This document shows, one piece after another, positions 1 through 39,493 of a stretch of 39,493 nucleotides of DNA. The position numbers and the translations under genes were made by a program. The stretch is from a virus. Under the pieces are notes generated by a model. The model had not been told where the DNA came from and did no database searches. It was given only the letters and a program-made list of their open reading frames with translations. Position 1 is the first letter of the stretch; each line of letters starts with the position of its first letter. The stretch covers positions 1-39,493 of IMG/VR virus record IMGVR_UViG_3300032236_000382. The stretch is one strand, 5' to 3'.

Positions 1-118
1 AAACCTGTGAGATTTTACCCTGACGTACCATTTGGACATCACCGTTACGCATATCCCGCGAGGTGCTACGGTAGCGCAGCGCCTGAACGCGGTTAATGAT
101 TTGCGGCATTGTCAACAT
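1..118 (-). CDS. Portal protein, 5' end only (duplicate of the intact gene at the right end)
   Basis: Read on the minus strand from the ATG at 118-116 this gives the first 39 codons of the portal protein, cut by the window edge. The same start lies at 39488 in the right-hand repeat, where the gene is complete. This copy shows what lies upstream of the portal start in the circle: an AAGGA Shine-Dalgarno sequence 7 nt before the ATG, and the stop of the 129-530 gene ten bases away. Portal therefore directly follows that small gene and TerL in the late transcript. It is not a second portal gene. Confidence 0.85.
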   Translation of the reverse strand, partial: MLTMPQIINRVQALRYRSTSRDMRNGDVQMVRQGKISQV

Positions 119-123
119 TTAGT
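1..123. repeat. Terminal direct repeat, left copy (circular-assembly overlap)
   Basis: The first 123 bases are identical to 39371-39493, the last bases of the window. The repeat lies inside the portal gene (its first 39 codons) and runs a few bases upstream of its start. A repeat that falls in the middle of a coding region and is exactly shared by both ends is what a circular or circularly permuted genome gives when assembled, with the overlap left in. A true packaged terminal repeat of 123 bp is possible but less likely, because it interrupts a gene. Removing one copy gives a 39370-bp unit. Confidence 0.93.
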
Positions 124-5188: not shown

Positions 5189-5620
5189 ATGCGTAAGTTC
5201 ATTACTTATATCAGTGTTGTATACTTAGCTTTCTGGTCAGTGTTGTTCCCACCTAAAGCTCAAGCACTAACAGTGCATGCTATTAGGTGCGAGGAGATAC
5301 CTAACAAGTACTGGACTGCTGGCATAAGCCGTGCCTATGCACGGGTAGTAGCAATGCAGCACTATGGTTGGGGACGCAGTGAATACAAAGCATTGAATAA
5401 GTTATGGACTGCCGAGTCGCACTGGAATCCAAGCGCATACAATACTGAAGTCGGTGACCCGGTTGATGGTACACATGCCGGTGGTATTCCACAGATACTA
5501 GCACTAGACCCACGAACGCCAGCCCCTGTCCAAATTGACAGGGGGCTGGCTTACATAGCTCATCGTTATGGTAAGCCAAGCATTGCTTGGAATCACCACC
5601 GTGCCCGCGGTTGGTATTAA
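5189..5620 (+). CDS. Secreted lytic transglycosylase-like protein
   Basis: 143 aa. Residues 1-26 form a signal peptide: MRK, hydrophobic core, then PPKAQA as likely cleavage site. The mature part has LWTAESHWNPSA (Glu76 the probable catalytic acid of the lysozyme/SLT fold), AGGIPQI, and the C-terminal YGKPSIAWNHHRARGWY pattern common to actinobacterial and actinophage transglycosylase-like proteins (family knowledge). Expected to cut peptidoglycan glycan strands outside the membrane. It is in the early block, far from the lysis cassette, and just before the amidoligase/amidotransferase pair, so wall remodelling during infection rather than final lysis is a reasonable inference. Start follows the preceding TAA by one base. 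Confidence 0.8.
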   Translation: MRKFITYISVVYLAFWSVLFPPKAQALTVHAIRCEEIPNKYWTAGISRAYARVVAMQHYGWGRSEYKALNKLWTAESHWNPSAYNTEVGDPVDGTHAGGIPQILALDPRTPAPVQIDRGLAYIAHRYGKPSIAWNHHRARGWY

Positions 5621-5635
5621 TAGAAAGGGAAAGAG

Positions 5636-7264
5636 ATGACAGTTAATACAGTTGAACTGATTAGCCCAGCTAATGAATCAGTTCAACAAACGCTTGACAA
5701 TATTAAGACGTTTATTATTCGTCGTGTTATTAACGACGTTAGTGAACTTAGTAACTATTGGGATAGCTTACCAATAGAAAGCAAGAACTATCTTATCAAT
5801 GCGTGGAATACATTGGATGCTAAATATGCAGGCATTGGTACATGTCAATCACGCTTCAGTTGTTATGGTTCTAATTCCCCTAAGTATCTATACAACTATA
5901 CAATGCAATCACCAAAGTCTGATTATGAACCAAGTGTTCTTGAGAACTCTTGTCATCAATGTATTGCTTCTACCTTTACAACAATGCACAATGATGAATT
6001 GTTTATAAGGTTATGGGATGGTTTAAACAAAGACATAATGCCATCTGTTTTGTTTGTACATCCTGAACGTACACAATGTTCATGTTCATATCCTATTCCA
6101 TTAGCAGAAGATATCATGCCAAGTAATCATCGGCATGAATCATTATGGATTGCTGTTCAAGCAATACATGATGAGGATAATGAAGAAGAACAAGAGATAG
6201 TACACAGTATGTGTAGCTTTGAATGTTCATCATGTAATAAAATAATGGATAGAAATAATATCAATCGTAATCGTGCTGATGATTGTGACTATTGTGAATC
6301 ATGTTGGGAAAACATGGACACATATTATTGTGAACGCTGTGAGGAATACTCAACAGATGAAACAATATGGTCTGATGTACGTAATCGTGACTTGTGTTCG
6401 TCATGTTATGATGACACAATTGAATGTGATTATTGTGAAGATAATTACTATGAAGAAGATGGTCATGAGTGTGATGAATATACACCTATGATTCGTAACT
6501 ACTCATACAAACCTACTCCTATATTTTGGCCTCATCATGATAGTAAGTTCTACTATCTAGGCATTGAACTTGAAGTAGAATCTAAGAACGCTAAGCGCAG
6601 TGATGCTGCTGCATATGTTAGTGAGTTCTTAAGTGAGCATGCCTATCTTAAAGAAGATGGTTCACTTGAGAATGGCTTTGAGATTGTTACTCATCCTCAT
6701 ACTCTTGATGCATATCATCAACTTGACTGGTCATTCTTAGACAAGCTTAAGTCTATGGGTGTGCGTTCATGGAATACATCTACATGTGGATTGCATGTGC
6801 ATGTTGGCCGTGTTGCTTTTGATATGGCTAGCTATCCTGAATCAGAAAAACATTTGATTCGATTCACTAAGTTTATCTATGATAACGAGCAGCAAGTTAC
6901 ACGCATTGCTGGTCGTACTAGTAACTATGCTGGCTTCAATGATAAGGGAAAAGTTATTCCTAAAATCAAACACAATCGTCAGTCTAATGACCGGTACTCA
7001 GCAGTTAATATCTATCCTGAATACACAGTTGAGATTCGTGTATTCAAAGGTTCGCTACGTAAAGAGCGAGTCTTATCTGGTATCGAGTTTGTTCATGCTG
7101 CGGTTGAGTTTACCCGTGACATGAAGATTGTGCCTAAGCAAATCCCATTCTCTTGGGCACGATTCATTACGTATGTAACTAACAATCAAGAAACATATCC
7201 CAACTTGTTCATCATCTTGAACGAGACATTCGCACGAGACTATAACGGAAACGAGGAATCCTAA
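5636..7264 (+). CDS. Amidoligase (GS-like COOH-NH2 ligase) with N-terminal Cys-rich domain
   Basis: 542 aa, good AGAAAGGGAAAGAG Shine-Dalgarno region. Residues about 190-280 contain repeated CxxC units (C197/C200, C217/C220, C232/C235, C254/C257, C264/C267), indicating several zinc knuckles. Residues 305-500 match the amidoligase_2 pattern of glutamine-synthetase-like ligases: YLGIELEVE (Glu311, Glu313), DGSLENGFEIVTHP (341-354), CGLHVHVG (384-391), and Asn458 with TVEIRVFKGS (464-473). Such enzymes use ATP to join a carboxyl to an amine, forming amide or isopeptide bonds. The next gene encodes a glutamine amidotransferase that can supply ammonia. The target is unknown; peptidoglycan peptides or a host protein are candidates. 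The gene is very AT-rich compared with the leader. Confidence 0.85.
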   Translation: MTVNTVELISPANESVQQTLDNIKTFIIRRVINDVSELSNYWDSLPIESKNYLINAWNTLDAKYAGIGTCQSRFSCYGSNSPKYLYNYTMQSPKSDYEPSVLENSCHQCIASTFTTMHNDELFIRLWDGLNKDIMPSVLFVHPERTQCSCSYPIPLAEDIMPSNHRHESLWIAVQAIHDEDNEEEQEIVHSMCSFECSSCNKIMDRNNINRNRADDCDYCESCWENMDTYYCERCEEYSTDETIWSDVRNRDLCSSCYDDTIECDYCEDNYYEEDGHECDEYTPMIRNYSYKPTPIFWPHHDSKFYYLGIELEVESKNAKRSDAAAYVSEFLSEHAYLKEDGSLENGFEIVTHPHTLDAYHQLDWSFLDKLKSMGVRSWNTSTCGLHVHVGRVAFDMASYPESEKHLIRFTKFIYDNEQQVTRIAGRTSNYAGFNDKGKVIPKIKHNRQSNDRYSAVNIYPEYTVEIRVFKGSLRKERVLSGIEFVHAAVEFTRDMKIVPKQIPFSWARFITYVTNNQETYPNLFIILNETFARDYNGNEES

Positions 7265-8118
7265 TGTGTATGTTATGTGTAATACCACCCAACATTGTTC
7301 CATCTATTGACAAGCTGGAGAACTCAGCTCTCAATAATCCTCATGGCTTTGGCTTTGCCATTGCTGTGCCTAGTGAGCAGCGTATTATTTGCGAGCGCAC
7401 TATGGATGCTGATGAATCTATCAATAGATTCTTAGCATTACGTACTCAGTATCCAGAAGGCTATGCTATTTGGCATGCTCGCTATGCTACGCATGGTGCA
7501 AAGAATGTTAACAACTGCCATCCGTTTGTAGTAGGTGGTGACCAGCGTACATATCTAGCACACAATGGTATGCTTGATGTAAGCATTCCACATGCTGATG
7601 ACCGCAGTGATACTCGTATCTTTGCAGAGGAATTGTTACCAGCATTAGGTGGCGTTGCCTCATTGGATAATGACTGGGTCTTTGATATGCTTGAAGACTA
7701 TACCGCCGGTTCAAAGGTAGCTGTGCTTACTGTTGACCCTGCTGCTAAGCACCCATTATATCTACTCAATAGTAAGTCTGGTTGGGAAGATACTTCCGGT
7801 GTATGGTGGTCTAACCATACCTGCTATTTAGACTCATGGTCTACAGCATACCGTAAACCTTATGCTGATAGTTACCTTGATGATGAAGATAAATGGTGGA
7901 CACAACAAGACTCTAAATCTAAGAAACTTGACACGGATGAAGGATACATTTGTGTCAACCCAAAGTGTAATGCTATACTAGACATCTCCGAGATTGAACA
8001 AGGCGATGGTGTCTGTATATTCTGTGGTTACTGCATGGATTGTGAGCAAGGCTATGACTCATGCATGTGCTACATGCCACCAACACGTAAGACTACTGAT
8101 GCTTGGAGTCTATCATGA
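7264..8118 (+). CDS. Class II glutamine amidotransferase with C-terminal zinc ribbon
   Basis: 284 aa; the ATG shares a base with the amidoligase stop (TAATG), so the two are coupled. Cys2 directly after Met is the N-terminal nucleophile of class II amidotransferases. NPHGFGFA (25-32), HARYATHG (71-78), NNCHPF (83-88) and AHNG (99-102) are the substrate-binding and oxyanion motifs of this Ntn fold (family knowledge). It hydrolyses glutamine and should pass ammonia to the partner amidoligase. The C-terminal 60 residues carry several Cys pairs (CVNPKC, CIFCGYCMDC, CMC), a zinc-binding tail echoing the Cys-rich part of the amidoligase; the two may dock through these. Confidence 0.85.
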   Translation: MCMLCVIPPNIVPSIDKLENSALNNPHGFGFAIAVPSEQRIICERTMDADESINRFLALRTQYPEGYAIWHARYATHGAKNVNNCHPFVVGGDQRTYLAHNGMLDVSIPHADDRSDTRIFAEELLPALGGVASLDNDWVFDMLEDYTAGSKVAVLTVDPAAKHPLYLLNSKSGWEDTSGVWWSNHTCYLDSWSTAYRKPYADSYLDDEDKWWTQQDSKSKKLDTDEGYICVNPKCNAILDISEIEQGDGVCIFCGYCMDCEQGYDSCMCYMPPTRKTTDAWSLS

Positions 8119-8273
8119 ATCAATACATTATGATACTGTATAAAGAAGATGGCAACGTCAATGTATATGGACCCTTTGATACAGCTGACAGTGCTCAGTT
8201 GTGGACGCATAACTTTTCAGGAAGAAAGGTAAGCATTGACGCACTCATCAAGCCCACACATAATGCCGACTAA
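8115..8273 (+). CDS. Small hypothetical protein
   Basis: 52 aa starting in an ATGA overlap with the amidotransferase stop. The start is MNQYIMILYKEDGNVNVYGPFDT, followed by a helix and SGRKVSIDALIKP; it looks like a small beta-alpha-beta domain of the kind found in many phages next to unrelated genes. No function can be assigned. It overlaps the following mini-gene by 11 nt. Confidence 0.65.
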   Translation: MNQYIMILYKEDGNVNVYGPFDTADSAQLWTHNFSGRKVSIDALIKPTHNAD

Positions 8274-8391
8274 ATACTTAGCAACCCAGTGTGCATCCTG
8301 TTACAAGGAAATACTGGTAGCACAATCAGATGAGTCTACCAACTATTACTGCGTGTCGTGCGCGTGGAATAGACTGGGCAAGGTAGACTAA
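8263..8391 (+). CDS. Small zinc-finger protein
   Basis: 42 aa in a different frame, overlapping the previous gene by 11 nt. Two pairs, CASC and CVSC, separated by about 20 residues, form one probable zinc ribbon. It closes the amidoligase cluster before an intergenic hairpin. Function unknown. Confidence 0.6.
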   Translation: MPTKYLATQCASCYKEILVAQSDESTNYYCVSCAWNRLGKVD

Positions 8392-8463: not shown

Positions 8464-9231
8464 ATGGAAATAGAACGCGATAGATACGGCAGACCATTGG
8501 TCATACCACCTGATGGTGGTAAAGCTGTACCGTATACCCGTACCACTACAGTTGCTGGCTCACTTGATGATGGGACTGCGCTGATTGCATGGAAAATGCG
8601 AATGGCATGCATAGGATTATCACAACGCCCAGACCTGCTACTTGCTGTAGCTGCTACAGATAAAGACAATACTAAAGAATTGAATGCGTTAGTTGAAGAT
8701 GCAATGGAGGCAGCCGGTGCTAACTCTGCTGCCCGTATTGGTTCAGCAGTGCATGCACTAACAGAAGTACTAGACCGAGGCGAAGAGCTCGGGGTAGTAC
8801 CAGACCTATACTTGGCAGACCTTAAGGCTTATGCTGATGCGACTGCTAAGTTTAAGAACGTATGGATGGAACAGTTCTGTGTGCTTGATGAGTACAAAAT
8901 TGCTGGTACACCAGACCGTATCGTTGAGTACAACGGTGAGTTGTACATCTCAGACTTAAAAACAGGTTCACTTCACCCTACTAGTGTGGCTATGCAACTT
9001 AGTGTGTACGCACACGCCGCCCCGTATGACCCTGCTACGGGACAGCGTAGCAATTGGGGTAAGGTTAACCAAGAGAAAGCAATAGTTGTCCACCTTCCTG
9101 CTGGTAAAGCACAATGCACATTGCACTGGGTTGATATCAAAGAAGGTTGGCAGGGAATACAAATAGCAATGCAAGCAAGAAAATGGCGAGACCAAAAGGG
9201 TCTCATCATTCCATTCGATAAGGAGGCATGA
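8464..9231 (+). CDS. PD-(D/E)XK (RecB/Cas4-like) nuclease
   Basis: 255 aa from the ATG at 8464, 3-4 nt after AAAGGAGG. The core shows an N-terminal helix with His (AARIGSAVHALTEVLDRG), then GTPDRIVEYNGELYISDLKTG: the Asp of PDR and the D-x-K of SDLKTG are the metal-binding residues of the PD-(D/E)XK fold, followed by the QLSVYAHA helix typical of RecB/AddB-type nucleases. In actinophages this family is usually annotated as Cas4/RecB-like exonuclease next to DNA replication genes (family knowledge). Probable role: end processing for recombination-dependent replication. It is the first gene of a tightly packed replication run. Confidence 0.85.
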   Translation: MEIERDRYGRPLVIPPDGGKAVPYTRTTTVAGSLDDGTALIAWKMRMACIGLSQRPDLLLAVAATDKDNTKELNALVEDAMEAAGANSAARIGSAVHALTEVLDRGEELGVVPDLYLADLKAYADATAKFKNVWMEQFCVLDEYKIAGTPDRIVEYNGELYISDLKTGSLHPTSVAMQLSVYAHAAPYDPATGQRSNWGKVNQEKAIVVHLPAGKAQCTLHWVDIKEGWQGIQIAMQARKWRDQKGLIIPFDKEA

Positions 9232-11672: not shown

Positions 11673-11949
11673 CGAAACGATATGGGATTATGTGGACAAC
11701 ATGGAGGGTTCTATTGGTATCCACATCTCAGAGACCAAGGTATTAGATTTACTGGGTGCTCTCTATGATATCTATGAAGTCAATAAAACAAATCAATCCG
11801 AAGGTCAGGAACTTATTATTGGGCTTACTGCTCTACTTGTTGCTGCGCCTTTGGACCAAGCGGACAAGGTCTGGGAAGAACTCTCAGTCCGAGAAAGCAT
11901 GAAGAACTTTGAACTGCAGGTAAAGGATGTACTAGATGGAGCAGAATAA
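11641..11949 (+). CDS. Hypothetical acidic helical protein
   Basis: 102 aa, ATG at 11641 inside the end of the primase gene (32 nt overlap). All-helical composition and strong acidity (pockets such as NMEGSIGIHISETKVLDLLGAL and LDQADKVWEEL). No motif recognised. Its end overlaps the next start by 14 nt. By position it could be a replisome modulator, but nothing in the sequence shows this. Confidence 0.65.
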   Translation: MSESEIVLPLDETIWDYVDNMEGSIGIHISETKVLDLLGALYDIYEVNKTNQSEGQELIIGLTALLVAAPLDQADKVWEELSVRESMKNFELQVKDVLDGAE

Positions 11950-12388
11950 CCTAGCCAAATTGGAGCGTAACGTAGATGAAATCCTTGCCGAACTCAAGTC
12001 AATCTTACTTAAGAAGCAGCAAGACTACGGTCCGCTTAACATCTCACTCGCACCCGGAGGGCCTTTCAATGGTCTACGAGTACGAATGTACGACAAGCTT
12101 GCACGATTCAGTAACCTTGTTGACAACAACAACGACACGCCGAACTATGAAAGTTTGGAAGATACATTCATTGACCTTGCAAACTATGCCATAATAGGCA
12201 TACTAGTCCATAACGGACAGTGGGAAGGCGTGCCTTCTCAGTACGCAAGGAGACAAATGAATGGCGCGTCAAAGAATACTAATCCTGAGCGACCTGCAAA
12301 TTCCGTACCACGACCCTACGGCAATCAAAGGAGTCCTGAAACTTATACGGGAAATACGCCCAACCCAATTGTGGTGCGTTGGCGATGA
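11936..12388 (+). CDS. MazG-like / DUF1599-type protein
   Basis: 150 aa, ATG at 11936 with AAAGGA upstream. Residues about 20-100 (KKQQDYGPLNIS, GLRVRMYDKLARF, YESLEDTFIDLANYAIIGIL) match the all-alpha DUF1599/MazG-like fold, where the E..D..D acidic residues bind magnesium and the enzyme hydrolyses nucleotides or supports nucleotide modification (family knowledge). The last 40 residues (RRQMNGASKNTNPERP...) are Pro/Asn-rich, of low complexity, and overlap the next gene by 128 nt, so the folded domain probably ends near residue 105. Likely role: nucleotide-pool control in infected cells. Confidence 0.75.
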   Translation: MEQNNLAKLERNVDEILAELKSILLKKQQDYGPLNISLAPGGPFNGLRVRMYDKLARFSNLVDNNNDTPNYESLEDTFIDLANYAIIGILVHNGQWEGVPSQYARRQMNGASKNTNPERPANSVPRPYGNQRSPETYTGNTPNPIVVRWR

Positions 12389-14680: not shown

Positions 14681-14854
14681 ATGAAAATGCTGAGCGATGA
14701 TGATGTGCGTACTATCCGTCGTGAGTATGCAGTTATCAACGACAAGATTGGTTATGTTGCTACCAATGTGATTGAGCTAGCCAAACGATACAACGTCAGC
14801 CAAGAAACAATCCGCAAGGTTGCCATTGGTGTTACCTATAAGGAAGTCGTATGA
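14681..14854 (+). CDS. Small helix-turn-helix protein
   Basis: 57 aa, directly after the FmdB stop, with GGAGG 5 nt upstream. LSDDDVRTIRREYAV then NVIELAKRYNVSQETIRKVAIG forms a probable helix-turn-helix of the type found in phage and transposon DNA-binding proteins (recognition helix around SQETIRKVA). It could bind the TACTGT dyads as a dimer. The stop overlaps the whiB start (ATGA), so the two regulators are made together. Confidence 0.72.
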   Translation: MKMLSDDDVRTIRREYAVINDKIGYVATNVIELAKRYNVSQETIRKVAIGVTYKEVV

Positions 14855-15126
14855 GCAAAGAAGATTACTCGGTCTGCCTTGAGCCAGCAGATAAGGCAGA
14901 TGAACTATGGAAGCTAGATGCTAGCTGCCAAGGATTAAACACTGACATGTTCTTTACCGAGGTCGGACAGAACCCCGACCCTGCCCTTATCAGAATGTGT
15001 AAGGCCTGCCCTGTCAAGCAGCAGTGCATAGAGTATGCTTTGAAGTACAGCCTCGAGGGAATATGGGGCGGTATGGGACAGAGAGGCAGAGAAAACTACA
15101 GACGCAGACAGAAAATCACCCACTGA
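14851..15126 (+). CDS. whiB: WhiB-like iron-sulfur transcription factor
   Basis: 91 aa. Four cysteines in the WhiB arrangement: Cys26 (DASCQG), then Cys50, Cys53, Cys59 (CKACPVKQQC), ligating a 4Fe-4S cluster, followed by the GIWGG turn (70-74) and a basic C-terminus (RRRQK) for DNA contact. WhiB proteins are confined to actinobacteria and their phages and work by binding the primary sigma factor region 4 (family knowledge), so this is the best evidence for the host group. Last gene of the early block; a dyad repeat follows 12 bases after its stop. Likely role: reprogramming host transcription or blocking competing phages. Confidence 0.92.
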   Translation: MSKEDYSVCLEPADKADELWKLDASCQGLNTDMFFTEVGQNPDPALIRMCKACPVKQQCIEYALKYSLEGIWGGMGQRGRENYRRRQKITH

Positions 15127-15576: not shown

Positions 15577-15711
15577 TTACTCCTTAAGGTAGTCTTCATA
15601 GCAATCCGGACATAAGAATGTCCAGTTCTTAATGTTATATGCCCCCCACCTACGGCAGCGGAAGCAACTCGCATGAAGATAAAGTTTACGAGTGGGACTT
15701 AACGAGCCCAA
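15577..15711 (-). CDS. Small Zn-finger protein in the lysis cassette
   Basis: About 44 aa; the end (TAA at 15577) is certain. The start is uncertain: upstream codons belong to the amidase gene in another frame, and a TTG at 15711 gives SLSPTRKLYLHASCFRC...CPDC. Cys pairs CFRC and CPDC form a single zinc site. No good Shine-Dalgarno sequence precedes the TTG, so translation may depend on the amidase gene it overlaps. Function unknown. Confidence 0.5.
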   Translation of the reverse strand: MGSLSPTRKLYLHASCFRCRRWGAYNIKNWTFLCPDCYEDYLKE

Positions 15712-16225
15712 GGTAGGTATCCCAAGGGAAGTGAGTACCCGGGTCGGTGTGTCCGCCAGCAATCTTCTTGGCTGCGGTGATATCCGCATGACCACAGAAG
15801 CCTGCTTTACCTACAAGGATATCTGCTGGGGTTAACTTGATAGCAGGGATGCGATAACGCTTGGCTATCTCAGCGGCAAGCTGAGCTGAAAGCTTTAGTT
15901 CAGCTTGAGAGTATGCATCGTTCCATTGCTCAGGGCTTTGGCTAGCAGAGCCAGCATGTTCAATGGAGATAGACTGTTGGTTGAGTAGCCAGTCATCACA
16001 TGCCCATGCAGTATCAAACTCAGAGACTGATTGAACTACCTGCTTGTCATCCACCATGTAGTGGGCTGATGCTTGCGGTGCTGTCTTGCCTGCAAACCAG
16101 CCGGCTACTTGCTTGGCTCGTCCCTCTGACTCAGGTGTCTCCATAGTGTGAACCACAATAAGGTGGGGAATATGTCCGCCCCGTCCCTTGCTGAAGTTAA
16201 CTGCTTGATAAAATGGGTAGGTCAC
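15686..16225 (-). CDS. Endolysin: N-acetylmuramoyl-L-alanine amidase
   Basis: 179 aa, GTG start at 16225 within a GTGA overlap. The amidase_2/PGRP fold is shown by HLIVVHTMETP (His26 zinc ligand), SAHYMVD, ISIEHAG, and the CGHADIT and GGHTDPG motifs (His159 and Asp161 probable remaining ligands). It cuts the amide bond between N-acetylmuramic acid and L-alanine in host wall. A single catalytic domain with no clear wall-binding repeat and no signal peptide, so it needs a holin for export. The two membrane proteins upstream and one downstream are its likely partners. Confidence 0.9.
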   Translation of the reverse strand: MTYPFYQAVNFSKGRGGHIPHLIVVHTMETPESEGRAKQVAGWFAGKTAPQASAHYMVDDKQVVQSVSEFDTAWACDDWLLNQQSISIEHAGSASQSPEQWNDAYSQAELKLSAQLAAEIAKRYRIPAIKLTPADILVGKAGFCGHADITAAKKIAGGHTDPGTHFPWDTYLGLVKSHS

Positions 16226-21361: not shown

Positions 21362-21945
21362 TATTTAACTCCGTAAAGGGCGAAGGAGGAATACTGCTGG
21401 AATGAACCGCCTTGCGGATATAAAACCAAAGAAGTAATGGCGTTAGCGTTTCGCCAAGAACCTGATGATAAAAAGATATAACCTGCTCCGTTTGTATCTT
21501 TACCAACTAAAGAACGAGCAGTTTTATATTTGTAAATATTGGCGTAATCAAGAATATCAGTTACAAACACGCCATATGTATTTGCGGTTTCAGAACTCAT
21601 TGGAATAACACCGTAAGCAATCATAATATTTGTAGTTAATTCGTTACCCGAGGTTGCTGATGAACCATCGCCAACAATGTAGTGTTCCGAATAATTGCTG
21701 GCAGTATCTCCGTTAAATTGCATACGAAGGTTTTGCTCTGCGCCCGGGCCTGATGTTGTTGTATTTCTAGCAATGCCGCGAATCTGCAAATGCGTATATC
21801 CCGTAGGAATACCAGCAAAAGTTACAGAGGCTAATCCACCGCTAGGTACAATAACAGTGCCAAGGGCATCATATGCCCCAACGATAGGTGCAGATAAATG
21901 CCCAGACTTACCCGAGGCAAATACTCCAGTAAGTAAAGGACTCAT
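21361..21945 (-). CDS. Tail-tip paralogue with extra N-terminal extension
   Basis: 194 aa; TAATG-coupled on both sides. Residues about 1-35 (SPLLTGVFASGKSGHLSAPIVGAYD) are unique; then VTFAGIPTGYTHLQIRGIAR, NLRMQFNGDTASNYSEHYIVGDGSSA, SWRNANAITSLVLYPQ and FALYGVK follow the same pattern as its two neighbours. The extension could anchor the trimer to the tail. Third member of the tandem family. Confidence 0.75.
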   Translation of the reverse strand: MSPLLTGVFASGKSGHLSAPIVGAYDALGTVIVPSGGLASVTFAGIPTGYTHLQIRGIARNTTTSGPGAEQNLRMQFNGDTASNYSEHYIVGDGSSATSGNELTTNIMIAYGVIPMSSETANTYGVFVTDILDYANIYKYKTARSLVGKDTNGAGYIFLSSGSWRNANAITSLVLYPQGGSFQQYSSFALYGVK

Positions 21946-22403
21946 TAAACAATGTCCCCCACGATGGTGAACGTGTTGCTCGCAGTGCAGATTACTTGTG
22001 CTCCTGCATTGATAACACGAATCTTAGGAGAAGATGTGGTAGCACCTGTAGATGTAATAGTTACTCCTGAGCCTTGGGTAAAGGTAACCTGACCAGCACC
22101 TGTCTGGAGAACAGTAATGATGTCACCAGCAGAGAAAACTGATGGTGGCACGGTTACGGTTACAGCAGAAGCACCAGTAGATGTGACTACGTTATCAGCA
22201 TCTGTCAGTGCTAGGGTGTAGGCAGTACCTGAAGTGGTCGCAAGTGTCGGACGTTGCTTGCCCATAGGTACTCCACCAGCGGTGGCTCCATCATGAACGA
22301 CGACAACATTCTTGGTGGTGTCAACTGTAAGTTCTCCAGCCAACCCTGTAAATGAAGTATGTGCAGCAGTTGTACCTCTGCGGCGTTGGTAAGCGAAACT
22401 CAT
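21945..22403 (-). CDS. Mtd-N-like fibre-associated protein
   Basis: 152 aa from the ATG at 22403, in an ATGA overlap with the preceding stop; the longer TTG start (22418) is less likely. Residues about 6-45 (RRRGTTAAHTSFTGLAGELTVDTTKNVVVVHDG) match the N-terminal domain of major tropism determinant-type proteins, which form trimeric bases of receptor-binding proteins. The rest is beta-rich (VTVTVPPSVFSAGDIITVLQ, GSGVTITST). No reverse transcriptase or variable repeat is present, so no diversity-generating element is claimed. Part of the tail fibre group. Confidence 0.75.
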   Translation of the reverse strand: MSFAYQRRRGTTAAHTSFTGLAGELTVDTTKNVVVVHDGATAGGVPMGKQRPTLATTSGTAYTLALTDADNVVTSTGASAVTVTVPPSVFSAGDIITVLQTGAGQVTFTQGSGVTITSTGATTSSPKIRVINAGAQVICTASNTFTIVGDIV

Positions 22404-23821
22404 GGTACGGTTCCCCAATCAGTTGAGATAGATGTTGTAGATGTCCACGAAGCAGTGGTTCCGTTCGTGGTTAGGTACTTGCCACTGTTACCCGTCTGAG
22501 ACGGGATAAAGCTGGCTGCAGTCGTGGCACTGGCAGCAGCAGAAGTTGCGGATGTAGCAGCGGAAGCGGCTGAGGTAGCCGCTGCAGTAGCAGAAGCAGC
22601 AGCTGCGGTTGCAGATGCAGCAGCACTTGTTGCACTGGTTGCTGCAGCAGTCTGGCTTGTTAGCGCAGATGAAGCCGAAGTAGAAGCTGAGGCTGCTGAT
22701 GTAGCAGCTGCTGCCTGTACCGTAGCAATGTTAATGTAGGTAGAGGTTGTGGTATCAGGGTCAGTGATAGCACCCATATCACGAACCAAGCCTGAGCCAG
22801 TCTGTCCGGTGATAGCCGTGAAAGAAGCGGCAGCAGAAGTAGCACTTGTGGCAGCGGATGTAGCACTTGTTGCGGCTGAAGCAGCACTGGTAGCAGCATT
22901 GTTTGCTGCTGTAGTGATGGTAGCCACAGAAGCAGCAGCCGTAGTAGCCGAAGCCGCTGCTGAGGTAGCAGAGGTGGCTGCACTGGCAGCTGAGGTAGAT
23001 GCTGAGTTGGCTGAGGTTAGGGCGTTAGCGGCCTGTGTAGTGGCCGTAGAGGCACTGTTAGAGGCTGTCGTAGCAGATGCAGCAGCAGATGTGGCTGAGG
23101 TTGCAGCGGCGCTCGCAGAGGCTGCAGCGGCCGAAGTGGCAGCGGCCGAACTAGCGGCTGATGTGGCAGCAGAGCTGGCTGATGTAGCGGCTGAAGATGC
23201 TGATGTGCCTGCAGCAGTAGCTGAAGCAGCAGCTGAAGTAGCTGAGGTAGCAGCAGCAGTAGCCGAAACAGATGCGCTGGTAGCAGATGTTGCAGCAGCA
23301 GCAGCGTTGGCTGCACCTGTGGAGATGTTGCCATCTACATAGTACTTAGTGGCTGCGTCCTGTGCGTTGGTAGGGTTAGCCATGCCTGTGATGGCAAAGC
23401 CACCAGCAGCCAGAGCTGAACCTAAAGTTTTGTTCGAGATAGTCTGAGCATCGGTATCACCAATGACGTTACCTGTTAGCCCATGCACACCAGCACTAGC
23501 ATTGATGTGGAGGTTGGCTTCACGGAAGTCACGACCGATAGCCATGTGGCGGATGACCGCACCGGCTGAGTGGTCTACTGCAGATGAACCATCAGAGCCA
23601 CGGGTGACTGTGATAGTGGTGGAGCTAGACGAGGTGACATCTAAGATTTCTTCAAGTGCTGTATCTGGGTCGATGACCACAGTAAATGTTTGACCAGCGG
23701 ATAGTGTGATGCCGGGCATCAAGGTAGCAGCAGAGGCAACGGGTAGCACCGTTGCTCCTGAAGTTACAGAGCCAGTGAGTGTGGTCTGTTGAGACCGGGA
23801 AGTATACTTACGAGTTGTCAT
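22400..23821 (-). CDS. Tail fibre with long Ala/Ser/Thr repeat
   Basis: 473 aa. Residues 15-92 are a beta module (SGATVLPVASAATLMPGITL ... ITVTRGSDGSSAVDHSAGAVI) also met in the connector; 95-165 holds HGLTGNVIGDTDAQTISNKTL, usual in fibre proteins. From about 169 to 445 comes a low-complexity repeat of Ala/Ser/Thr units (of the SAATSATSAA type), broken once by TGQTGSGLVRDMGAITDPDT (about 325-360). Such repeats form long coiled or beta-helical shafts in side-tail fibres. The end (GKYLTTNGTTASWTS) is a small globular cap. The Mtd-N-like protein and the tail-tip family are translated after it. Confidence 0.82.
   Translation of the reverse strand: MTTRKYTSRSQQTTLTGSVTSGATVLPVASAATLMPGITLSAGQTFTVVIDPDTALEEILDVTSSSSTTITVTRGSDGSSAVDHSAGAVIRHMAIGRDFREANLHINASAGVHGLTGNVIGDTDAQTISNKTLGSALAAGGFAITGMANPTNAQDAATKYYVDGNISTGAANAAAAATSATSASVSATAAATSATSAAASATAAGTSASSAATSASSAATSAASSAAATSAAAASASAAATSATSAAASATTASNSASTATTQAANALTSANSASTSAASAATSATSAAASATTAAASVATITTAANNAATSAASAATSATSAATSATSAAASFTAITGQTGSGLVRDMGAITDPDTTTSTYINIATVQAAAATSAASASTSASSALTSQTAAATSATSAAASATAAAASATAAATSAASAATSATSAAASATTAASFIPSQTGNSGKYLTTNGTTASWTSTTSISTDWGTVP
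22474..23317 (-). repeat. Ala/Ser/Thr-coding low-complexity region in the tail fibre gene
   Basis: A stretch of about 840 bp whose codons are almost only for Ala, Ser and Thr, in imperfect 7- to 8-codon units with GCA/GCT/AGT/ACT mixing. The opposite strand also stays open with a shadow frame rich in Ala and Val. Copy-number changes here would alter the fibre length. Confidence 0.75.
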
Positions 23822-37139: not shown

Positions 37140-37670
37140 CTACTTAGATTGAAATGCCGTTGTGTATGGTGGGGCAGTAAAGGCTGTGAGCTTTGCTGCT
37201 ACTTCCATTGCTTCAAAAATTCCTACTCCTACAGTTAATGCGCCTAGCGCATAAGGAGCTCCAGACCCAATGGCATAATGCTTGCTATCGGATTTGGTTA
37301 TTCCCAAGTCTTCATCTAGTTCAAACAACTCTCCGCCTACTGCGACGAGGAATTGGAACCGCTCACTACCTTGTTCATCAAAGTTGTAACCGTTTTCCTT
37401 CAAGCACTTACGCATTGAAGGGATTACCTTGACTACCATGAAGTGATAAAGGTCTTGTCTATCTTTTGCTAGTAGCCGTGGTGGTTCCCAGATGTGCTGG
37501 ATAACATCACAAGGCAAGATTTCTCCTGCACCGGCGATGATAAATGCACCGCGGTGGTTAATCTTTGTCATGCTTGAATGGCTAAAGACCTTACCGCTAT
37601 CGTCTGTAACTTGACTATCCGCGAGAATCCAAGCGCCTTCGTCTTCTTCTACTCCGATAATCGTTGTCAT
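37140..37670 (-). CDS. HslV/proteasome-beta-like Ntn hydrolase, possible maturation protease
   Basis: 176 aa; ATG at 37670, AAAGGG upstream. Met removal would leave TTIIGVEE... with Thr1 as nucleophile, as in HslV (TTIV-type start). ILADSQVTDDSGKV supplies the Asp17 position, MTKINHRGAFIIAGAG the Lys near residue 35, and HYAIGSGAPYALGAL the conserved GSG-PYA element; the C-terminal AAKLTAFTAPPYTTAF also matches HslV/beta subunits. Length is that of a single catalytic subunit. No ATPase partner (HslU or Mpa-like) is encoded, though actinobacterial hosts have a proteasome ATPase. Position between portal and internal proteins, and the lack of another prohead protease, suggest head maturation. 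Strength of the match is high; the role is inferred. Confidence 0.8.
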   Translation of the reverse strand: MTTIIGVEEDEGAWILADSQVTDDSGKVFSHSSMTKINHRGAFIIAGAGEILPCDVIQHIWEPPRLLAKDRQDLYHFMVVKVIPSMRKCLKENGYNFDEQGSERFQFLVAVGGELFELDEDLGITKSDSKHYAIGSGAPYALGALTVGVGIFEAMEVAAKLTAFTAPPYTTAFQSK

Positions 37671-37676
37671 GTCCCT

Positions 37677-39488
37677 TTATCCCACTACGCGACGGTTAAT
37701 TGTCCTTACACTTGCATTGCCTTTACCAGCTACGTTGAGGCTGGAAAGCAAACTTTCTAATTCTGGTCGAGGCGTAATAATTCCTGCGCCTTGCTCTGGG
37801 CGAGTAGCCTCACCTTCAGGCGTACCTTGAGGTGTAGGGCCTCCTACTGGAGCGCCGGGAGCAGAAGGGACGGACGGCTGCTCAACCGATTGTTGCGTTC
37901 CAGCAGGAGGATTCTCTGGTTGGAACACATCGAGCATGATGTCTTCAAGGGCTAGACCCTTTTGACGTTGCTGGATAACGGTAGAGATTTTCTTGATGAT
38001 GTCCGTAGGGTCTTGACCCTGTGAGGCCATCTGCGGAATCGCTTGTGTGTATGCCTGAATAGCACCCATCAGCGATGTGCGTAGGTCTTCGGTCTCAATC
38101 TTCTCTTGTTCCAAGGTCACGTTGACATTGAATGGTAACTCACGCATAGCCAAGTCTTTGGAGATTAACTTACCGCCAAGTGCTTGGAGCATGAAGATTA
38201 GGCCTTGAGCTGGGTTTAGACCAGCAAGCATGCCGTAGCGTACATCTGCGGAGTAGTCTCCCTTGATGTCCTTGCCCGGCTTGTAGGTAATAGCATAGGG
38301 GGAACCAGCATCGACACCACGAATTGTCTTCTCTTCGTCAAAGAGAGCCTCATCTACCTCAAAGCAAAGAGAGATAACATCACGTAGCGCGGTGGTGAAT
38401 ATTGTTTGTGCCGCTTTGATTTGAGAATCAAATGAACCCATCAGGGCTTCGACACCGGCACCAGTAACAATGGATGCCTTCATGTTGCCCGAACGGGCTT
38501 CAGGATAACGAGCTCCTGTACGTAGTTCATCATTGAGCAAAGCCTGCTCATTGAACGCGCCTTGTGGAAGCGTCAGTTCTACACGGCGTACACCAGCAGG
38601 GTTAGCGGTACGAATAACCGCATCTCCACCAAGTTGTAGTTCTTGTACATCGTTAGGCAAAACGATTGGTGACTGAACGGATTTCTCAGCTGCTTCCATA
38701 GCGAGCAGAGCGAATCGGTTACGGAGCAACTGAATGCCCAACACATCGTCGAATTGTCCATGAAGTTCGCCATCAACGCTTGGTCGCTTGGCGATAACTA
38801 CCATCATCTTGCCCATTGGGTTGGCTGCTTGAGACAACACAAAGTGGTTACGAGATGGAAGGAAGAGAACAGACTGGTCCTTATCGTAATAACGAACCAT
38901 TTCAATCATGCCGTTCATGTCTTGCTTGTATCCGGCAGGACCGAGAATCTGCTTCTCGTAATCAGGGAACTGTGCCACCAGTTCTCCTAGCGTCATTGAG
39001 TAACGCTTGACAAAGCAAATGCATCGTCCGTAGCGGTCGAATTCAGGATAAGCCCCTATCGGGTTTTCTAGTCTGATGCGTGGCAGCTTTGCTTCCTCAT
39101 CCAATTCAATAATGAACGGGAGGAATCCATAGGTCAGGTACATATCGGCACCTGAGTACATTGCAACTTCCATATCCGAGTGACGGAAGTAGTTAGCGGC
39201 AATGCGTGTGCGCTTGTCAGCGAACTGACGGGCACGGTCTGACGTTTGATTTACGGCAGAGCAATTGATGGCAGGGAGCGGAGCAATCATCTCGGCAAGG
39301 TCGCGGGCGACGATGTCAATGAAGTTTGCTACTACGTTCTGGTCGATACCATCTGGGAAGAAGTTAGGGTAAACCTGTGAGATTTTACCCTGACGTACCA
39401 TTTGGACATCACCGTTACGCATATCCCGCGAGGTGCTACGGTAGCGCAGCGCCTGAACGCGGTTAATGATTTGCGGCATTGTCAACAT
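37677..39488 (-). CDS. Portal protein
   Basis: 603 aa, ATG at 39488 with AAGGA upstream (visible at 118-128 of the left copy). Typical portal traits: N-terminal helices, a long central wing with SGADMYLTYGFLPFIIELDEE and NPIGAYPEFDRYGR, SAVNQTSDRARQF, the FDSQIKAAQTIFTTALRDVI clip region, and a long helical C-terminal barrel with Gln/Pro-rich tail (PAGTQQSVEQPSVPSAPGAP). Forms the twelve-part ring for DNA entry and tail attachment. It directly follows terminase and the small 129-530 gene through the circle junction, and precedes the HslV-like hydrolase. Start confirmed by the duplicate end. Confidence 0.9.
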   Translation of the reverse strand: MLTMPQIINRVQALRYRSTSRDMRNGDVQMVRQGKISQVYPNFFPDGIDQNVVANFIDIVARDLAEMIAPLPAINCSAVNQTSDRARQFADKRTRIAANYFRHSDMEVAMYSGADMYLTYGFLPFIIELDEEAKLPRIRLENPIGAYPEFDRYGRCICFVKRYSMTLGELVAQFPDYEKQILGPAGYKQDMNGMIEMVRYYDKDQSVLFLPSRNHFVLSQAANPMGKMMVVIAKRPSVDGELHGQFDDVLGIQLLRNRFALLAMEAAEKSVQSPIVLPNDVQELQLGGDAVIRTANPAGVRRVELTLPQGAFNEQALLNDELRTGARYPEARSGNMKASIVTGAGVEALMGSFDSQIKAAQTIFTTALRDVISLCFEVDEALFDEEKTIRGVDAGSPYAITYKPGKDIKGDYSADVRYGMLAGLNPAQGLIFMLQALGGKLISKDLAMRELPFNVNVTLEQEKIETEDLRTSLMGAIQAYTQAIPQMASQGQDPTDIIKKISTVIQQRQKGLALEDIMLDVFQPENPPAGTQQSVEQPSVPSAPGAPVGGPTPQGTPEGEATRPEQGAGIITPRPELESLLSSLNVAGKGNASVRTINRRVVG

Positions 39489-39493
39489 TTAGT
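39371..39493. repeat. Terminal direct repeat, right copy
   Basis: Identical to bases 1-123 of the window. Here the portal gene is complete. The two copies mark one point on a circular map, or the redundancy of a circularly permuted linear genome. See the left copy. Confidence 0.93.

Follow-up and report, generated by a model that had tools for sequence, protein, structure and literature searches.

We report here that two adjoining genes in a 39,493-base virus record (IMG/VR IMGVR_UViG_3300032236_000382, positions 1 to 39,493, analysed whole and hereafter called the window) form an obligate pair, an amidoligase followed by a class II glutamine amidotransferase (GATase), carried as an accessory cassette. 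Judging by sequence and structural models, the pair would probably make up a two-subunit ligase that uses glutamine to amidate a carboxylate. An earlier note on positions 5189-8391 had described both enzymes and had grouped with them a signal-bearing transglycosylase encoded immediately upstream. The three open reading frames (ORFs) were confirmed at 5189-5620, 5636-7264 and 7264-8118, as was the TAATG overlap that couples the last two, in which the amidoligase stop codon (7262-7264) shares its last base with the GATase ATG (from 7264). Both enzyme assignments held up; the grouping with the transglycosylase did not. The features of the pair are:

5636..7264, + strand: amidoligase, a glutamine synthetase (GS)-like carboxylate-amine/ammonia ligase of 542 amino acids (PF12224, Foldseek, invariant catalytic residues)
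6203..6472, + strand: multi-Cys part of the amidoligase, residues about 190-279, probably zinc-binding from its Cys pattern (conserved Cys in the alignment)
6554..7240, + strand: GS-like catalytic core, residues about 307-535, with ExE, DGS...GFE, CGLHVHV, R..N and ExR motifs (alignment, model)
7264..8118, + strand: class II (N-terminal nucleophile, Ntn; Cys2) GATase of 284 amino acids (PF13230, Foldseek, invariant residues)
7951..8070, + strand: eight-Cys C-terminal part of the GATase, C230, C235, C251, C254, C257, C260, C267 and C269 (Cys conservation, model)

The amidoligase matches Amidoligase_2 (PF12224) with an E-value of 5.6e-8 and 33.4 bits, against a curated cut-off of 22. Its AlphaFold2 model (predicted local distance difference test, pLDDT, 81.9) was compared with solved structures using Foldseek, and the best folds were YbdK (1r8g, E 1.2e-5), glutamine synthetases, GmaS and Dop; matches to the first three had E-values of 1e-3 or less and a probability of 1.00. 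Across 40 aligned relatives, E311, E313, D341, S343, E349, H387, H389, R427, N458, E466 and R468 are invariant. Sequence and fold show a complete GS-like ATP/Mg ligase site, and amide-forming activity is predicted. In the multi-Cys part, C193, C200, C232, C254, C264 and C267 are invariant in the same relatives and C220, C223, C235, C257 and C279 are at least 90% conserved. This part is modelled with a pLDDT above 90 over most of its length, and profile comparison matched it weakly to LIM/PHD/RING chains in the PDB (best E 0.005).

The GATase matches PF13230 with an E-value of 1.3e-6, over the curated cut-off. Alignment with 36 relatives revealed invariant C2, R73, T76, N101, G102 and D116; C2 is the Cys nucleophile that follows Met1, and the R, N-G and D of the glutamine pocket are kept. 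R73, T76 and H86 sit at the GlmS positions. The AlphaFold2 model (pLDDT 84.0) has its best fold matches in the GlmS glutaminase (1xff, E 5e-8), PurF and EgtC (4zfl, E 1.9e-4). Sequence and fold show a complete class II glutaminase site, and transfer of ammonia to the partner is predicted. The eight Cys of the C-terminal part are invariant or at least 90% kept in these relatives, with a pLDDT of 65-90. Of 68 loci, 63 encode a GATase whose C-terminal tail contains a Trp (for example L018, L031 and L040), and the tail has GGW in 41; this conserved C-terminal Trp is a possible docking tail for the ligase.

The pairing is obligate, with the amidoligase first. Informative loci came from about 120 viral contigs and formed two sets, one of relatives found with the GATase as query and one of 75 loci led by the amidoligase, with 47 contigs outside the first set. 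An amidoligase lay directly upstream of the GATase in all 71 loci with upstream sequence, five others starting at a contig end, and a GATase lay at most 100 nucleotides downstream of the amidoligase in 74 of the 75 loci, the remaining one stopping at a contig edge. Five GATases were missed in ORF calling, where the longest start probably fell inside the preceding gene, and were found intact by tblastn. GS-like and Ntn-like predicted folds, catalytic residues of the ligase retained among relatives and a pair that co-occurs are the points on which the earlier note had made its assignments depend, and all three were found.

The same gene order was found in mycobacteriophage Marvin, ctgrD200, the marine phage MEP401 and two contigs from metagenome-assembled genomes (MAGs; labelled Patescibacteria and Eubacteriaceae). 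A search of viral contigs with the amidoligase returned at least 599 stretches, and 579 among the matches listed were confirmed as relatives. A cellular origin of the pair was considered and rejected: among cellular genomes, one per GTDB species, the GATase query found no relative and the amidoligase query found two MAG contigs, each with the pair, in scans by short peptide patterns that distant homologues could escape. An unpaired amidoligase in Clostridioides phage AR1086-1, with neither CxxC before the core nor an adjoining GATase, is a single case and proves nothing. No further enzyme gene was conserved beside the pair in the neighbourhoods of the pair loci. The Cys-rich parts of both enzymes, which the earlier note had thought unusual, are kept throughout the family, Marvin included, and are therefore a family trait, not a quirk of the window phage.

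An exact 123-base direct repeat is present at the two ends of the window (1-123 and 39371-39493). The window is therefore probably the whole genome, the alternative being that the ends represent an assembly overlap. Terminase (61%) and capsid (66%) place the window phage closest, among sequenced isolates, to OX376640 (LanE43-AprE7) and OX376641 (LanE43-AprF5), which are phages E7 and F5, obtained on 'Ca. Planktophila' LanE-43 (PMC10202952). They also share with the window a sigma factor, a WhiB-like gene (14851-15126 in the window; PF02467, 2.6e-14) and a soluble lytic transglycosylase (SLT)-like protein. From WhiB and the host of these isolates, the window phage is very probably a freshwater actinophage of 'Ca. 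Nanopelagicales' type, with the host genus inferred.

The position of the pair was then considered with respect to its neighbours:

5189..5620, + strand: secreted SLT-like lytic transglycosylase, bordering the slot that holds the pair (phrog_12661, NCBIfam, hydrophobic N-terminus)
8263..8391, + strand: small Zn-ribbon-like ORF of 42 amino acids (CxxC...CxxC), a neighbour of uncertain membership
8464..9231, + strand: Cas4-like exonuclease, right border of the slot (phrog_466, E 1e-68; in the same place in seven pair-less relatives)

The transglycosylase belongs to the core genes of the phage family and lies outside the amidoligase-GATase cassette. Its annotation in the earlier note was upheld: the ORF has a hydrophobic N-terminus and matches the phrog_12661 transglycosylase (1.8e-11) and the NCBIfam aggregation-promoting-factor C-terminal domain (8.8e-14), with a Pfam SLT match under the cut-off (E 0.12); the catalytic Glu is probably E76. 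The gene was present in 24 of 24 related genomes tested, including 13 without the pair. Among 14 near-complete relatives picked by terminase alone, all have the transglycosylase and one has the pair. E7 and F5 likewise carry the transglycosylase and lack the pair. The two adjoin in the window's clade; in the other large pair-bearing clade the transglycosylase lies about 5.4 kb from the pair and on the opposite strand (38 of 47 loci). Because it occurs without the pair, and far from it in the other clade, the transglycosylase is not part of the module, and the three-gene system proposed by the earlier note was rejected on presence and absence together with the distant, opposite-strand position in the 38 loci. 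A second wall enzyme in the window phage is an Amidase_2 endolysin (15686-16225, - strand, 1e-21).

The pair is an accessory cassette of actinophages, and in the window's clade it fills a slot where close relatives hold DUF932. It is absent from 13 of the 14 near-complete relatives selected by terminase. In seven pair-less relatives (L239-L245), the interval between the transglycosylase and the Cas4-like gene holds a protein of 317-342 amino acids and small ORFs; two of these slot proteins were scanned and both are DUF932 (PF06067, 8e-35 and 3e-33; phrog_1221). All 13 pair-less near-complete relatives have DUF932, as do two fragments, and the 28 pair-bearing genomes are all without it; E7 and F5 lack both the pair and DUF932. 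On the terminase tree the pair falls in two separate clades, and at least two changes between the pair and DUF932 states are required. The exclusion is clean but has few phylogenetic events behind it. Among 23 genes measured, the amidoligase gene is the lowest in G+C (37%; the whole genome has 47.5%), which fits acquisition.

The region delimited by the earlier note ends at 8391 and so also covers the Zn-ribbon-like ORF, which that note did not name. Of 68 loci with sequence beyond the GATase, 61 have a short CxxC...CxxC ORF there. Three pair-less genomes carry similar ORFs upstream of the transglycosylase gene; the ORF was therefore rejected as a fixed third partner and is not claimed as a member. 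In 48 of 68 loci (L015-L055) the next gene after the GATase is a conserved ORF of 60-85 amino acids that has the motif PPTPYYYG; it was not found in the window.

Several known systems resemble the pair. Marvin gp105-gp106, annotated as glutamine amidotransferase domain proteins, have the same order of a PF12224-type ligase and a class II GATase; as in the window, CxxC motifs precede the core of the ligase, the C-terminal part of the GATase holds eight Cys, and the host is actinobacterial. Identity is 27% for the ligase and 37% for the GATase. Unlike the window genes, those of Marvin are 79 nucleotides apart without overlap and lack a GGW-type tail; they lie at the right end of a 65 kb Mycobacterium phage. 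The two genes of the OM43 phages MEP401 and MEP402, reported as amidoligase and GATase (PMC10580990), have the same order, overlap, and lie upstream of primase, helicase and polymerase. They differ from the window pair in a betaproteobacterial marine host and in having fewer Cys motifs, with two CxxC in the N-terminal part and three Cys in the GATase C-terminal half. Podoviruses of the phiEco32/LUZ24/RIO-1 kind have a 'peptidoglycan modification' cassette (Iyer 2009; Hardies 2013, as cited in PMC5498523 and PMC11945000) whose early-region genes likewise include an amidoligase and a class II GATase; an ATP-grasp ligase, a second COOH-NH2 ligase and a gamma-glutamylcyclotransferase complete it. 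No match to the last (PF06094) was found in the window, with positive controls in nine genomes; none was found to the second ligase (PF14395), for which the controls were likewise empty, and the 30 window ORFs scanned, a subset of the total, gave no Pfam match to an ATP-grasp ligase. MurT-GatD is, in principle, also a two-subunit glutamine-dependent amidating ligase, and only the logic is common: its folds, a Mur ligase and a class I GATase, are unrelated to those of the pair. A known defence system was rejected as an identity for the pair, which had no PADLOC match.

In the mechanism that we favour with moderate confidence, the GATase would free ammonia from glutamine and hand it to the amidoligase, which would use ATP to convert a carboxylate, by way of an acyl phosphate, to a primary amide. 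The Cys-rich parts and the C-terminal Trp of the GATase would probably serve in assembly or in recognition of a macromolecular target, be it a protein or a peptide of the cytosol, for example a precursor of the cell wall. By eye, neither enzyme has an N-terminal signal sequence, and action in the cytosol would therefore be expected. Most likely, the cassette would alter a host component to the phage's benefit. Several points weigh against this account. The modelling covered single chains, the complex and an ammonia channel being putative, and zinc binding is deduced from Cys patterns. Over the query, the best solved structures give modest TM-scores (0.28-0.47), which is expected for two-part chains. 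An Ntn site by itself cannot tell an ammonia donor from an EgtC-like amidohydrolase, and the analysis indicated no substrate. The swapping of cassettes is based on few phylogenetic events. Finally, the early position proposed in the earlier note stands for the window phage, where the pair lies beside replication genes, and is not general, since in the second pair-bearing clade the pair is on the strand opposite to those genes.

Among the alternatives, it is possible, and we hold it tentatively, that the pair modifies protein: a Cys-rich reader would dock the ligase on a host or phage protein, where an Asp/Glu or C-terminal carboxylate would be amidated, for example inactivating a defence or transcription protein. 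The Cys-rich module is present in all 40 aligned members with its LIM/PHD-like matches, Dop, a GS-fold enzyme that acts on protein tags, is among the fold matches, and the slot alternates with another accessory cassette, as expected of host-interaction genes. However, the LIM-like matches are weak (E 0.005), Dop ranks below small-molecule ligases, and the role of the slot is guesswork because DUF932 is a domain of unknown function. A bolder version appears improbable to us, namely that the pair serves counter-defence or host takeover by amidating protein: zinc-type modules, on both subunits, would pick a host protein, a key carboxylate of which would become an amide with glutamine-derived ammonia, and the slot would be a swap site for such functions, filled by the DUF932 cassette in sister phages. 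Amidation of the stem-peptide carboxyls (D-Glu or meso-diaminopimelate) of wall precursors in the cytosol, which would spoil the fit for incoming phages or lysins and was suggested in the earlier note as wall-peptide amidation or superinfection exclusion, seems to us rather unlikely. Wall amidation with superinfection exclusion has been proposed for related phage cassettes (PMC10580990 citing Iyer 2009; PMC5498523; PMC11945000), and in Gram-positive bacteria a different ligase and GATase, MurT-GatD, amidate the peptides of the wall (PMC3267633, PMC5871853). Yet no wall gene is tied to the pair, since genomes without it still have the transglycosylase. The window also lacks the gamma-glutamylcyclotransferase found in the larger cassettes, and no ATP-grasp match was found among the scanned ORFs; Cys-rich zinc-type modules are, moreover, unexpected for a ligase of small precursors.

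In a further reading, the Ntn enzyme might not donate ammonia but act as a hydrolase like EgtC, taking off a gamma-glutamyl or similar group that the ligase has put on, a reading that stays in play because the pocket residues are shared with glutaminases. EgtC is among the fold matches, with the same nucleophile and glutamyl pocket, and ergothioneine synthesis uses a GS-like ligase and an Ntn hydrolase in one pathway. We consider it quite improbable: the best fold and sequence matches are the true glutaminases GlmS and PurF, R73, T76 and H86 match GlmS in position, and overlapping or near-abutting genes with one-to-one pairing suggest a complex. Least probable, by a little, is that the pair serves metabolism as an auxiliary metabolic gene, either in the synthesis of a small amide or peptide or in nitrogen scavenging. 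The folds do match YbdK and gamma-glutamylmethylamide synthetase, and one paper takes such genes as nitrogen metabolism (PMC10945688); against this, no other enzyme gene is conserved beside the pair, and the Cys-rich modules suggest a macromolecular partner.

Other genes of the window phage were also annotated. In the late gene block, a protein of 176 amino acids (37140-37670, - strand) matches the proteasome-subunit family PF00227 below threshold (6.3e-4) and, in the PDB, weakly matches the bacterial proteasome homologue BPH (E 0.0099); it is possibly an Ntn-type maturation protease. A Major tropism determinant N-terminal domain (Mtd_N, 2.2e-13) is encoded in the tail-fibre region (21945-22418, - strand). 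The ORF at 11936-12388 (+ strand) has a DUF1599 'nucleotide modification associated domain 1' (6.9e-6) and is kept in E7 and F5.

Phage amidoligase-GATase pairs, and the idea of a wall change against superinfection, are already published (PMC10580990, PMC5498523 and PMC11945000), and the window pair is a new, divergent and abundant branch of these. To our knowledge, it is new that the pairing holds as obligate over many contigs, that the transglycosylase is separate from the pair, and that there is a slot of exchange with DUF932. The result corrects the idea that the adjoining muralytic gene belongs to the module. With an obligate pair, a clean pattern of presence and absence, the DUF932 slot, and pair-less E7 and F5 on a cultivable 'Ca. 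Planktophila', the guess of wall amidation and superinfection exclusion becomes directly testable.

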